64,000 nt of DNA from Planctomycetota bacterium (GTDB lineage Bacteria > Planctomycetota > Phycisphaerae > Phycisphaerales > SM1A02): the NCBI GenBank assembly GCA_016872835.1, contig VGYX01000010.1, positions 47,025 through 111,024 on the forward strand. The letters run 5' to 3'. Position numbers and translations under genes: made by a program. Under the pieces are notes generated by a model. It was given only the letters and a program-made list of their open reading frames with translations. It was not told the origin of the DNA and searched no databases. Within the stretch, counting starts at the first letter, position 1; each line of letters opens with the position of its first letter. Of this stretch, positions 5,979 through 21,354 are shown one piece after another.

Positions 5979-6794
5979 GTGATTCTGCGGACCTCCCAGG
6001 AGATCGAGGACGCACGCGCGGCCGCAGGCTGCGTGGTGGAGACGCACCGACGGCTGGCCGAGTGGCTGCGCCCGGGCATCACGCTGGCTGAAGTGGACGC
6101 CTTCTGTGCGCAGCTCTTCGAGAAGCTCAGCTGCAAGAGCGCCTTCGTGGGCTACAAGGTGCGCGGCCATCCTCCCTTCCGAAGCCAGACCTGCCTGAGC
6201 CTGAACGACATGGTCGTCCATGGCGAGCATGACGCGACCAAGCTGACCGAGGGCGATCTGCTGGCCGTGGACATCGGTGTGAAGCATCGCGGCATGATCG
6301 GCGACGCAGCCTGGACGTACTCCATCGCCAGCGCCACCGAGGTGGGACTGCGCCTGCAGCGATGTGGGCGCGAGAGCCTGCGCCGCGGCATCGCGGCGAT
6401 TCGCGCCGGGCGCCCGATGATCGAGTGGGCGCGCGCGGTGCAGAACTACGTGGAGCGCGAGTGCCGCTTCCATCTCGTGCGCGGCCTGGGCGGGCACGGC
6501 ATCGGCCACACGCTGCACGAGAGCCCCTACATCGCCAACACCGCACCGAGCTATCCCGGCGAGTGGACCGAGGCGTGGCGCCCCTTCGAGCGGGGCATGC
6601 TGCTTGCGGTCGAGCCCATGATCAGCGCGGGCACCACCGAGGTGCGGTCCCAGGGCAGCGCGTGGCCCGTCTGGACCGCCGACGGCAGCCTGAGCGTGCA
6701 TTACGAGGCGGACGTCATGGTGACCGAGGATGGTTGCGAGAACTTCACGGCGGCGCTGGACGAGCTGCCGGACATCGTGGGAGGCAAGGCATGA
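5979..6794 (+). CDS. map: Methionine aminopeptidase, type I
   Basis: 271 residues. It removes the initiator Met from nascent proteins in the cytoplasm. All metal ligands of the pita-bread fold are present: DIGV and IGDAAW (two Asp), LHESP (His), AVEPM (Glu) and HYEADV (Glu), plus the substrate His in VVHGE. GHGIGHTLHESP is the family signature. There is no N-terminal zinc-finger extension. The start is GTG. The stop overlaps the start of serA by 4 bp (ATGA), so the two are likely co-translated. Confidence 0.95.
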   Translation: MILRTSQEIEDARAAAGCVVETHRRLAEWLRPGITLAEVDAFCAQLFEKLSCKSAFVGYKVRGHPPFRSQTCLSLNDMVVHGEHDATKLTEGDLLAVDIGVKHRGMIGDAAWTYSIASATEVGLRLQRCGRESLRRGIAAIRAGRPMIEWARAVQNYVERECRFHLVRGLGGHGIGHTLHESPYIANTAPSYPGEWTEAWRPFERGMLLAVEPMISAGTTEVRSQGSAWPVWTADGSLSVHYEADVMVTEDGCENFTAALDELPDIVGGKA

Positions 6795-8002
6795 GCGGCA
6801 AGCCGCTGGCGGTGCTGGTGGAGGCGATCCATGCGTCGGCGGACGGCCCGCTGCGCGAGGCGGGCTTCGACGTGGAGCGGCTCGCGGCGAGTCCGGATGC
6901 GACGACGCTGGCATCGCTCGTGGCGCACGCGAGCGTGCTCGGCCTGCGCTCGAAGACCAAGTTGCCGGGGCCGCTGCTGGAACAGGCGAAGTCGCTCGCG
7001 GCCGTCGGCTGCTTCTGCATCGGCACGGATCAGGTGGATCTTGGCGCGGCGGCGCAGCGCGGCGTGCCGGTGTTCAACTCGCCCTTCTCGAACACGCGCA
7101 GCGTGGCGGAGATGACGCTGGCCGAGATCATCGCGCTGGCGCGACGCCTCTTCGAGAAGAGCGCGCAGTTGCACGCCGGACACTGGGACAAGAGCGCGAA
7201 GGACAGCCGCGAGGTGCGCGGTCGCACGCTCGGCATCGTGGGCTACGGCCACATCGGCAGCCAGCTCAGCGTGCTGGCCGAGGATCTGGGCATGCGCGTG
7301 GTGTTCTTCGACATCGCGCGACGGCTGGCGCTGGGCAACGCGCAGTCGCTGCCTTCGCTGCAGGCGGTGCTCGAGATATCCGACGTGGTGAGCCTGCACG
7401 TACCGGACACCGATCGCACGCGAAACATGATCGGCGCGAAGGAGATCGCGCAGATGTGCAAGGGCGCGACGCTGATCAACAACAGCCGTGGCAAGGTGGT
7501 CGATCTTCAGGCGCTCGCCGTCGCGCTGCGCTCCGGCCATCTTTCCGGCGCCGCCGCCGACGTGTTCCCCGAGGAGCCGGCCGAGAACGGCGAGGGCTTC
7601 CGCACGCCTCTGACCGGCCTGCCGAACGTGATCCTGACGCCGCACATCGGCGGCAGCACCGAGGAGGCGCAGGAGGCGATCGCGATCGACGTGGCGGAGA
7701 AGCTCGCGCGATACTGGCGGCACGGCACCACGGCGACGGCGGTGAACTTCCCGCAGGTCGACCTGCCGCAGGTGAAGGATGGGCTGCTGCGCATCCTGCA
7801 CGTGCACCGCAACGTGCCGGGCGTGCTCGGCAAGATGCACACGCTGCTGGCGAAGTCGAGCATCAACATCCACGCGGAGTTCCTGCAGAGCGACCGGGAC
7901 ACGAGCTTCGTGATCCTGGATGTCGACCGCTTCAAGGATCCGCGGCTGCTGGACGGACTGCGCGACATGGAGGAGACCGTGCGGATGCGCGTGGCCTCCT
8001 GA
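6791..8002 (+). CDS. serA: D-3-phosphoglycerate dehydrogenase
   Basis: 403 residues, close to the E. coli-type enzyme length. It oxidises 3-phosphoglycerate to phosphohydroxypyruvate, the first step of serine synthesis. The order is a substrate-binding domain, a Rossmann NAD domain (GIVGYGHIGSQ near residue 151), the catalytic Arg in NNSRGKVVD, Glu in FPEEP and His in TPHIGGST, then a C-terminal ACT-type regulatory domain (VPGVLGKMHTLLAKSSINI), which in this family senses serine. The track start at 6362 is an artefact; ATG 6791 overlaps the map stop. The left end of a palindromic element begins about 10 nt after its stop. Confidence 0.95.
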   Translation: MSGKPLAVLVEAIHASADGPLREAGFDVERLAASPDATTLASLVAHASVLGLRSKTKLPGPLLEQAKSLAAVGCFCIGTDQVDLGAAAQRGVPVFNSPFSNTRSVAEMTLAEIIALARRLFEKSAQLHAGHWDKSAKDSREVRGRTLGIVGYGHIGSQLSVLAEDLGMRVVFFDIARRLALGNAQSLPSLQAVLEISDVVSLHVPDTDRTRNMIGAKEIAQMCKGATLINNSRGKVVDLQALAVALRSGHLSGAAADVFPEEPAENGEGFRTPLTGLPNVILTPHIGGSTEEAQEAIAIDVAEKLARYWRHGTTATAVNFPQVDLPQVKDGLLRILHVHRNVPGVLGKMHTLLAKSSINIHAEFLQSDRDTSFVILDVDRFKDPRLLDGLRDMEETVRMRVAS

Positions 8003-8004
8003 GT

Positions 8005-8262
8005 CCGCGAACGAGGGTTGGAGGTTGTTATCGATCACCTGCCACTCCTCCACGCGCGTCGTGACGGCACAGCCCGTACGCGGCCGCCTTGGCTCCGCTT
8101 CGCATCCGCCTCGGCTTAGCGCTCATCGCTCCGCTCGGCGAATCGGGTCCGGGGAAACATGCGATCGGCTCGCTGCGCTCTTCGCGAAACCGCTTTGCGG
8201 GCTGCGCCGTCACAACGCGCGGATCGAGGTGGTCAATAACAACCTCCGACCCTCGCTATCGG
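8005..8262. mobile_element. Palindromic element A (MITE/REP-like, no ORF)
   Basis: About 258 bp between serA and the S9 peptidase gene. The outer arms, 8012-8040 and 8227-8255, are inverted repeats matching at 26 of 29 positions (core GGAGGTTGTTAT). A second inner pair, 8057-8079 and 8197-8219, matches at about 21 of 23, so the element can fold into a long hairpin. Copy B at 21106-21354 has the same terminal sequence but largely different middle DNA. No reading frame inside looks coding. The right end abuts the -10-like hexamer of the downstream gene. Shared ends plus changing middles suggest a non-autonomous element moved by an enzyme encoded elsewhere. Confidence 0.75.
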
Positions 8263-19557: not shown

Positions 19558-21096
19558 ATGTCCATCGACACCCGCATTCTCGGTCGCGACACCAACCAGG
19601 CCCTTGGTATCGGCCAGTACGCCATCGACTTCCTGCGCGACGGCGCACCCAGCGCGAGCGTGCTGGAGCGCACCGGCCTGTTCTTCACCGACGCCGTCCT
19701 GTGCGGCGCCAGCGCGTTGGCGCTCGGCACGAACGCCCCGACACTGCTGCGGCAGGAAGCGCTCCGATACCCCTCCAAGAAGGGCGTGTCGGTCTTCGGC
19801 AGCCGCAAGCGCGTGGCGCCCGAGAAGGCGATCGTCGCCAACTGCGCGGCGGTGCGCGAGTGGGACAGCAACGGCACGAACTTCGGATACCGTCCGCAGC
19901 TCGGCCACACCGCGGGCGAATTCGGCCACAACGACTTCTACGCGGTGCCGGTGGCGGCGGCGCAGATGGCCGGCGAAGGTGGCGCGTTCGCGCTGCGCGG
20001 CATGGCGTGTCTCGACGAGATCCGCGGCCGCCTCGCCGAGGTGTTCTCGTTGAAGACCTGGAAGATCGACCACGTGGTGCATGGCGCGATCGCCAGCGCG
20101 GCCGTCTACGGCGCGATGCTCGGCGCCAGCGCGGAGGAGATCGAGAGCGCAATCGGCATGTTCGTCGCGCACGCGATTCCGTGGCGCGCGATCCGCGCCG
20201 GCAAGCAGCTCAGCGACTCCAAGGGCGCCAGCGCGGCGATCAGCACCGAGTTCGCGATCCTGTGCATGCAGCGATCGATGCGCGGGTTCCTCGGGCCGCG
20301 CGACATCTTCCGCAACCCGGAGAGCATGTTCCGACAGTTCGTGAAGACCAAGGACGACAGTCCGTTCGACCTGCACCTCTCGATGGGCGGCGACGACTTC
20401 GCGGTCATGGGCATGCACTTCAAGCTGGGCCTCTATGAACACCAGTCCGCGAGCGCGCTGCAGGGCCTGATCGACCTGGTGCAAAGGCACGCGTTGATCG
20501 CGCAGAAGCCGCTGGCGATCAGGCGCATCCTGATCACCGCGTACGAGCCCGCCTTCGGCATCATCGGCGACCCCGCCAAGCGCGATCCGAAGACGCGCCA
20601 GAGCGCCGACCACAGCATGGTCTACATCGTGGGCACGCTGCTGCGGAAGGCGTCGGAGCGCGTGGCCAAGCAGGGTTCGGTCGGCACCTCGAACGACGAG
20701 GCGTGGAAGACGCTCATGCTCGGGCCCTACGACTACGACCCTGCCGCGATCAAGAACGAGTCGACGCGCGCACTCATGGCGAAGATGGACTTCGAGCACG
20801 GCGGCGCGGAGTACGACCGTCGCTATCCCGAGGGCATTCCCACCTCGCTGAAGATCGAGATGGAGAGCGGCGAGACCTTCGACAGCGGCCTCGTGATGTT
20901 CCCCGCCGGCCACGCGCGCAACACCACGGCCGACCTGAAGGGCATCCTGGACGCGAAGTTCGCTTTGCTCGGCAAGCTCGCCACCGACAAGCCGAAGCGG
21001 CTCGTGCGAAACCTGCTCGCGATCGGCGAGATGGGCCGCAAGGATCTGGCCGTGATCCACGACTTCGAGATCGCGGACCGCGGCGCCTTCGAGTGA
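19558..21096 (+). CDS. prpD: MmgE/PrpD family protein (2-methylcitrate dehydratase type)
   Basis: 512 residues. PrpD dehydrates 2-methylcitrate to 2-methyl-cis-aconitate in the methylcitrate route for propionate. Family features: NCAAVREWDSNGTNFG, HNDFYAVPVAAAQ, the WKIDHVVHGAIASAAVYGAML segment, the KQLSDSKGASAAISTEFA stretch, and a C-terminal KIEMESGETFDSG strand region. It has a leader with ACGGAG before the ATG. Neighbouring B12-domain/GTPase suggests both serve propionyl-CoA disposal, although no prpB or prpC is in the window. Palindromic element B starts 10 nt after the stop. Exact substrate is inferred from family only. Confidence 0.85.
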   Translation: MSIDTRILGRDTNQALGIGQYAIDFLRDGAPSASVLERTGLFFTDAVLCGASALALGTNAPTLLRQEALRYPSKKGVSVFGSRKRVAPEKAIVANCAAVREWDSNGTNFGYRPQLGHTAGEFGHNDFYAVPVAAAQMAGEGGAFALRGMACLDEIRGRLAEVFSLKTWKIDHVVHGAIASAAVYGAMLGASAEEIESAIGMFVAHAIPWRAIRAGKQLSDSKGASAAISTEFAILCMQRSMRGFLGPRDIFRNPESMFRQFVKTKDDSPFDLHLSMGGDDFAVMGMHFKLGLYEHQSASALQGLIDLVQRHALIAQKPLAIRRILITAYEPAFGIIGDPAKRDPKTRQSADHSMVYIVGTLLRKASERVAKQGSVGTSNDEAWKTLMLGPYDYDPAAIKNESTRALMAKMDFEHGGAEYDRRYPEGIPTSLKIEMESGETFDSGLVMFPAGHARNTTADLKGILDAKFALLGKLATDKPKRLVRNLLAIGEMGRKDLAVIHDFEIADRGAFE

Positions 21097-21105
21097 CCAA
21101 GCACC

Positions 21106-21354
21106 AGGGTCAGAGGTTGTTACCGACCACTCGGGACGCATCTTGGCCGGAGAGTCCAAGGCGGCATCCTGCGGAGCGAGGCGAGCCATCACGCGTGTCT
21201 GCAGGCGATGGGTCACCCAGACGGATCGACCCCGAATGGTCGCTGCGCATGCGAAGCGAAGCAGCGACGGGCCGCATGGGCTTTCCGGTCGTGATGCGTT
21301 GGTGAGGAAAGAGTGGTCAAGTGGTCCGTAACAACCTCTGACCCTCGCTACCGG
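21106..21354. mobile_element. Palindromic element B (MITE/REP-like, no ORF)
   Basis: Arms 21106-21131 and 21320-21345 are inverted repeats identical at 25 of 26 positions (AGGGTCAGAGGTTGTTAC then C or G, then GACCACT). These ends match element A (8005-8262). At the right side both copies continue with the same CTCGCTAYCGG, so the unit reaches about 21354. The middle ~190 bp differs from element A and has no coding look. The right end overlaps the end of the tricorn gene: its TAG stop at 21350-21348 lies inside the repeat. Both copies start about 10 nt after a stop codon. Confidence 0.78.

Follow-up and report, generated by a model that had tools for sequence, protein, structure and literature searches.

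Elements A and B, two noncoding segments of the 64-kb window (the whole stretch of 64,000 nucleotides that was analyzed), are probably non-autonomous REPIN-like palindromic elements, each a hairpin of two inverted ends, whose family is linked to an HUH-Y1 transposase of the RAYT/TIRYT type; we infer both their mobilization and a role at gene 3' ends. The window comes from a 2.39-Mb draft genome that is 98.9% complete. Element A spans positions 8005 to 8262 and element B positions 21106 to 21354, and inverted ends bound both. Their features are as follows.

6785 to 8002, plus strand: gene upstream of A, phosphoglycerate dehydrogenase-like by sequence (start approximate)
8003 to 8013, plus strand: outer flank of A, GTCCGCGAACG; related outer flanks (GTCCGCGTAAC) occur at many copies
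8014 to 8038, plus strand: left arm of A, AGGGTTGGAGGTTGTTATCGATCAC, 11 nt past the stop codon of the serA-like gene (8000 to 8002)
8053 to 8221, plus strand: middle of A, belonging to repeat family M, with inner arms at 8053-8076 and 8198-8221 and the core at about 8073-8201
8229 to 8253, minus strand: right arm of A, the top-scoring half-site of the genome (41.6 bits)
19558 to 21096, plus strand: gene upstream of B, MmgE/PrpD-like by sequence
21106 to 21130, plus strand: left arm of B, 9 nt past the stop codon of the upstream gene (21094 to 21096)
21131 to 21320, minus strand: middle of B, a diverged family M copy, inverted relative to that of A
21321 to 21345, minus strand: right arm of B, separated by 2 nt from the TAG that ends a convergent S41-type gene

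A preliminary description had claimed that the ends are inverted repeats with further arms inside, that the ends of A also bound B, and that each element starts about 10 nt past a stop codon, and all of this held up. The outer arms of A (8005-8040 and 8227-8262) are 36 nt long and 83% complementary, and those of B (21106-21131 and 21320-21345) are 26 nt long and 96% complementary. Inner arms are present in A (24 nt, 92%) and also in B (21136-21158 and 21277-21299, 78%). The core GAGGTTGTTA, allowing one mismatch, occurs in the window only at the four ends of A and B (0.59 matches expected), and the conserved arm begins at 8014 in A, 11 nt past the stop, and at 21106 in B, 9 nt past it. Folding of the entire element A gave a z score of -6.25. 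Next to B, the convergent gene ends in a TAG (21348-21350, minus strand) that is itself part of a conserved outer flank, CCGGTAGCG. The outer flank of A probably belongs to the mobile unit, and in relatives the outer ~8 to 12 nt usually vary jointly with the element.

The search of the whole genome with the end sequence, which the preliminary description had proposed, revealed numbers above the handful of copies that it had set as a threshold: a degenerate 18-mer with at most two mismatches gave 29 matches, versus 0 for a reversed-pattern control, and a 38-position half-site profile (E up to 0.1) detected 50 half-sites. With a relaxed pattern, both arms were readable at 12 loci, nine of them 49 to 60 bp long and three 240 to 249 bp long (A, B, and C12:24538-24805), and the remaining loci of the family have a single arm only. 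Scoring for decayed partners of these one-armed copies was mostly blank, against a background set that included a real arm (maximum 40), and we give it no weight. Since most complete copies are near-perfect hairpins of 49 to 60 bp, almost without a middle, the long form of A and B is the exception. The family is a dispersed extragenic palindromic repeat with many copies (tens, not hundreds), and its inverted doublets form hairpins, as those of REPINs do, with tips that vary among copies yet stay self-complementary. Element A is thus one of dozens of such small repeats located immediately behind stop codons in freshwater planctomycetes.

We looked for the family in relatives with two arm patterns. 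The first (R1) had almost no matches beyond the genus sample. The second identified six same-genus genomes with elements, namely, this one and G001, G004, G008, G010, and G012, and gave 0 or 1 match, the control level, in each of the other ten same-genus genomes. The arms are of the type AGGGTCRGAGGTTGTTAYYGACCAC in this genome, AGGGACGGGCCTACATATCGG in G004 and G010, AGGGACGGGGGTCGTTATTGG in G008 and G012, and AGGGACGGGGGTTGTTATTGG in G001. A single arm of the genome's own consensus formed no stable hairpin (z of -0.94); outer flank and arm combined, in the G004/G008-type sequence, folded with a z of -5.2. Two Verrucomicrobia matches to the pattern were dropped from the family because they carry a different palindrome: at the same locus in two genomes, we found a 50-bp palindrome, TATAAGGGTCAGAC(G/A)TAACTATTGA... 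(L265, 6953-7003; L280, 727-777), which looks like the ends studied here.

Variants are common to both arms of one element. Identical arm pairs made up 10/14 (1.0 expected), 8/9 (1.3), 8/15 (4.1), and 6/17 (4.1) of the pairs in four genomes, in which the within-pair mismatches were reached by 0, 0, 0, and 1 of 2,000 shuffles, respectively. We counted 47 single-arm versus 7 joint arm changes in this genome and 12 versus 32 in G004, G010, and G001 together, counts that, like those of site sharing below, still include some likely fold-back artifacts. The excess of single-arm changes in this genome fits decay once the enzyme was lost. Compensatory change in REPINs is already known (PMC3116915), and arm correction via replication template switching is a candidate cause of the covariation (PMC8794818). 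In a three-protein tree of the six species, only the pairs G008-G012 and G004-G010 are resolved, so that gains and losses are without polarity. Several contigs fold back exactly at perfect hairpins (the center of C17 in G001 [L062], L177/L182, L200, and L207, those at L200 and L207 being contig-end fold-backs of G004); they are probably assembly artifacts, and with contigs folded at hairpins the elements are undercounted in the metagenome-assembled genomes (MAGs).

The preliminary description had called the middles of A and B unrelated and had argued for mobility from ends that stay fixed while middles differ. The middle of A has 131 bp in common with C12:24538-24805 at 85% (its match there, C12:24605-24733, being in inverted orientation) and matches C32:345-474, a copy without REP arms, at 78%; further matches are partial on C1 and in G012 and were found at two loci in G010 and four in G004. 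The middle of B aligned to that of A in inverted orientation with a score of 68 (best of 300 shuffles, 51), scored 93 against a family M copy elsewhere (best shuffle, 53), and aligned inverted to most M copies above all 300 shuffles. Because the two middles align, the claim that they are unrelated is wrong. Repeat M is carried, in opposite orientations, by all three long copies, and A and B represent the uncommon long form of the hairpin, with the same kind of insert, a palindromic repeat. The argument for mobility loses its support as well, since the middle is shared and diverged and most copies are nearly without one. In family M, the apex is conserved, and the base stem comprises 19 pairs; among nine copies, double changes that preserve the pairing occur at 15 of these pairs (16/41 for the whole structure). 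Neither element A nor an M copy matched Rfam up to an E value of 1. M is a second palindromic family, with a core of ~130 nt and a variable but complementary base stem, whose copies occur with or without REP-type ends (window 8053-8221 and 21131-21320; L300, L294, L298, L295, L299, L301, and L302); on contig C258 of G010, its left part is tandemly duplicated.

No transposase is present in the 64-kb window, as had been noted, but a decayed one sits on contig C9. This sole Y1_Tnp match in the genome (C9:128301-128543; PF01797, E = 3.4e-8) contains internal stops and is flanked by family ends on the left (C9:128230-128267) and right (C9:128842-128862). By-eye comparison with an intact homolog suggests that an internal deletion took out the Y motif. 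The intact homolog, a protein of 223 aa with NHWH and YVERNP, is encoded in G004 (LaPlata_bin-4201) between inverted ends of that genome's own type (L092, 29-nt arms). It matches REP_Tyr_transpos (NF047646; E = 2e-15) with 56.8 bits, below the cutoff of 80, as well as PDB entry 4er8, TnpArep (E = 3.6e-5), and Y1_Tnp, the only Pfam domain detected. M24 and ABC-F genes adjoin both the decayed and the intact gene. The recommended look for a Y1 gene beside some copies was therefore positive, with a cognate HUH-Y1 gene flanked by the same repeats, as in REP/RAYT systems. Relative to G004, this genome has the segment with the RAYT and the M24 peptidase gene in inverted orientation (L031, 6239-8197, versus L212), and family ends lie at the breakpoints. 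In the same order, other long inverted repeats lie on either side of many Y1 genes (L077 to L089, L093, L095, L097, L098, and L104), and inverted-repeat families linked to Y1 genes may be common across this order.

From these sequences, we infer a REP-type mobilization of the family by the RAYT. The transposase would have acted on single-stranded hairpins, cutting and pasting elements; in this genome, it is now dead, and the copies are decaying. No convincing homolog was found in same-genus genomes besides G004 and none in the draft MAGs G001, G008, G010, and G012, which leaves mobilization in these four unexplained. No excision or movement of elements was observed among the genomes compared.

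The comparison of sites with relatives, also proposed beforehand, did reveal empty ones. With sites defined via orthologs of each upstream gene, G010 and G001 have no element at site A, where G008 and G012 hold another type. Site B is empty in G010 (TGAcgcTCA), G004 (TGAcccTCA), and G001, and in G008 and G012 two further element types occupy it. What is new is that six related species with differing arm types occupy many of the same sites. Of 53 site groups built from the retrieved elements, 25 include at least two species; G000 and G012, for instance, have 13 in common, versus a rough random expectation of ~0.3 that assumes 2,000 gene ends. Arms of different type groups at the same site (0.676) resemble each other no better than arms at different sites (0.666); paralogs in one genome reach 0.841. 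G008 and G012 share ten sites, with flanks 92 to 99% identical, and at five of the ten the element is not the same: in four cases it differs over its whole length, and in one (L224/L240) the arms agree but the tip does not. At these differing sites, the alignable flanks end 0 to 15 nt from the arms. Such a pattern suggests in-place exchange. A bolder version, which we put forward only tentatively, is that an enzyme or recombination swaps one REPIN-like hairpin for another exactly between the same two stops, so that addresses would persist across species while hairpins turn over fully, without sequence memory of the site. Alternatively, elements may insert repeatedly at preferred gene ends under selection. 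Outer flanks do not separate the two: their relatedness at orthologous sites (0.342 versus 0.304; bootstrap P = 0.046), from a set with one likely fold-back (L182), is nearly uninformative on common insertion. In a small search of the open-access literature, we did not find same-site occupation by different types described.

Evaluation of the neighboring genes, called by a GC-frame heuristic, placed 30 of the 59 two-armed elements between convergent genes and 26 between tandem genes; only 3 had divergent neighbors. The distance from an incoming stop codon to the arm is at most 15 nt in 71 of 84 cases (median, 8), and in 22 of the 30 convergent cases this is true of both stops. Preference for gene 3' ends and REPs providing stop codons are known (PMC3733652). 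Once transcribed, a hairpin in this position and with this fold would be a bidirectional 3'-end element, which could attenuate transcription, stabilize the mRNA 3' end, or act on ribosomes as reported for REPs no more than 15 nt from a stop. Such a function would explain why occupied sites persist while elements swap.

Location flush with stops, between convergent and tandem genes and rarely divergent ones, persistent sites, and very stable hairpins would all be expected as well of host-encoded 3'-end hairpins (terminators), never mobile and maintained by selection, that resemble each other via a trans-acting factor or gene conversion. We consider this origin improbable: relatives have empty sites with just 3 nt between convergent stops, the same ends flank a transposase, and the outer 8 to 12 nt usually change with the element, whereas conversion acting through the arms would leave them unchanged. 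The U-tract of intrinsic terminators is absent right after the hairpin in most copies, A and B included; a few G008 and G012 copies carry T runs. Derivation from a DDE transposon, as miniature elements (MITEs) with terminal inverted repeats and a target-site duplication, would account for the repeats and the variable interiors, but no target-site duplication was visible by eye when empty and filled A and B sites were compared, and the only transposase found between the ends, in a search that covered Y1, is a Y1; we regard it as very improbable. Least plausible of all are DNA-uptake-type signals with species dialects, also in inverted pairs at gene ends, since the species-specific versions at shared sites recall the dialects of Neisseriaceae uptake sequences but the copies number tens, not hundreds to thousands, and the repeat unit is a cassette of ~50 to 80 bp linked to a transposase.

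A mobile REPIN-like family is the reading we retain, and further points against it are that there is no GTAG/GGAG tag, that tens of copies are low for REPs, and that one arm of the own consensus folds into no stable hairpin by itself. The preliminary description had been reminded of REP/RAYT elements; dispersed inverted doublets, a Y1 gene between the same ends, and empty sites bear this out in part, but the GTAG tag is missing, as no GTAG/GTGG (or CGTC) tetranucleotide is conserved at the foot of the arm alignments. We therefore do not file the family with the GTAG REPs, and the TIR/TIRYT branch fits best. How REP and REPIN populations spread and persist is an open problem in the field, and this clade has close genomes, about 25 shared sites, empty sites, differing elements at shared sites, and a transposase that is intact in a relative but dead in this genome. 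With these, in-place exchange can be tested directly against repeated insertion at favored gene ends. One can also ask whether stop-codon hairpins are retained for an effect on gene expression.

The nearest described class is that of the TIR families of TIRYT/TIRtron tyrosine transposases (PMC3733652), probably within subclass 2.1 of another classification, to which almost all members of Bertels's RAYT group 1 belong (PMC6006769). As in TIR/TIRYT systems (PMC3733652), a RAYT-like gene lies between long inverted repeats unrelated to GTAG REPs, and moderately abundant related copies, often dimers, are dispersed in the genome. The TIR/TIRYT motif GGGGWSAS is matched only approximately, at 7/8 positions here (AGGGTCAG) and at 6/8 in relatives (AGGGACGG). 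The features of subclass 2.1 are NH[VYF]H, Y[IV]xLNP, and a C-terminal domain; the G004 protein shows NHWH and YVERNP. In the papers covered, we did not find TIR/TIRYT elements described that are flush with stop codons and that differ in sequence between species at the same sites, as those studied here do. With REPINs (Bertels and Rainey 2011, PMC3116915), they share the inverted doublet hairpin, the variable tip with compensatory changes, and the RAYT link; they differ in lacking a GTAG-type tag, in numbering tens of copies, in their strict stop-codon placement, and in having a long form with a second palindrome. In the REP "orthoswitch" of pseudomonads and stenotrophomonads, orthologous RAYT loci have different flanking REP classes in related strains (PMC3686654). 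The class change at orthologous RAYTs and the decay of REPs after RAYT loss are alike, but in that model the new variants spread to other places and the old ones decay where they are, whereas here the types differ at the same sites. Finally, REPs of E. coli also form hairpins within 15 nt of a stop, where they reportedly make ribosomes stall and reduce translation (PMC12306157). The share of E. coli REPs that lie this close is between 11% (RepRanger) and about half, compared with the 71 of 84 incoming stops seen here, from sequence alone.
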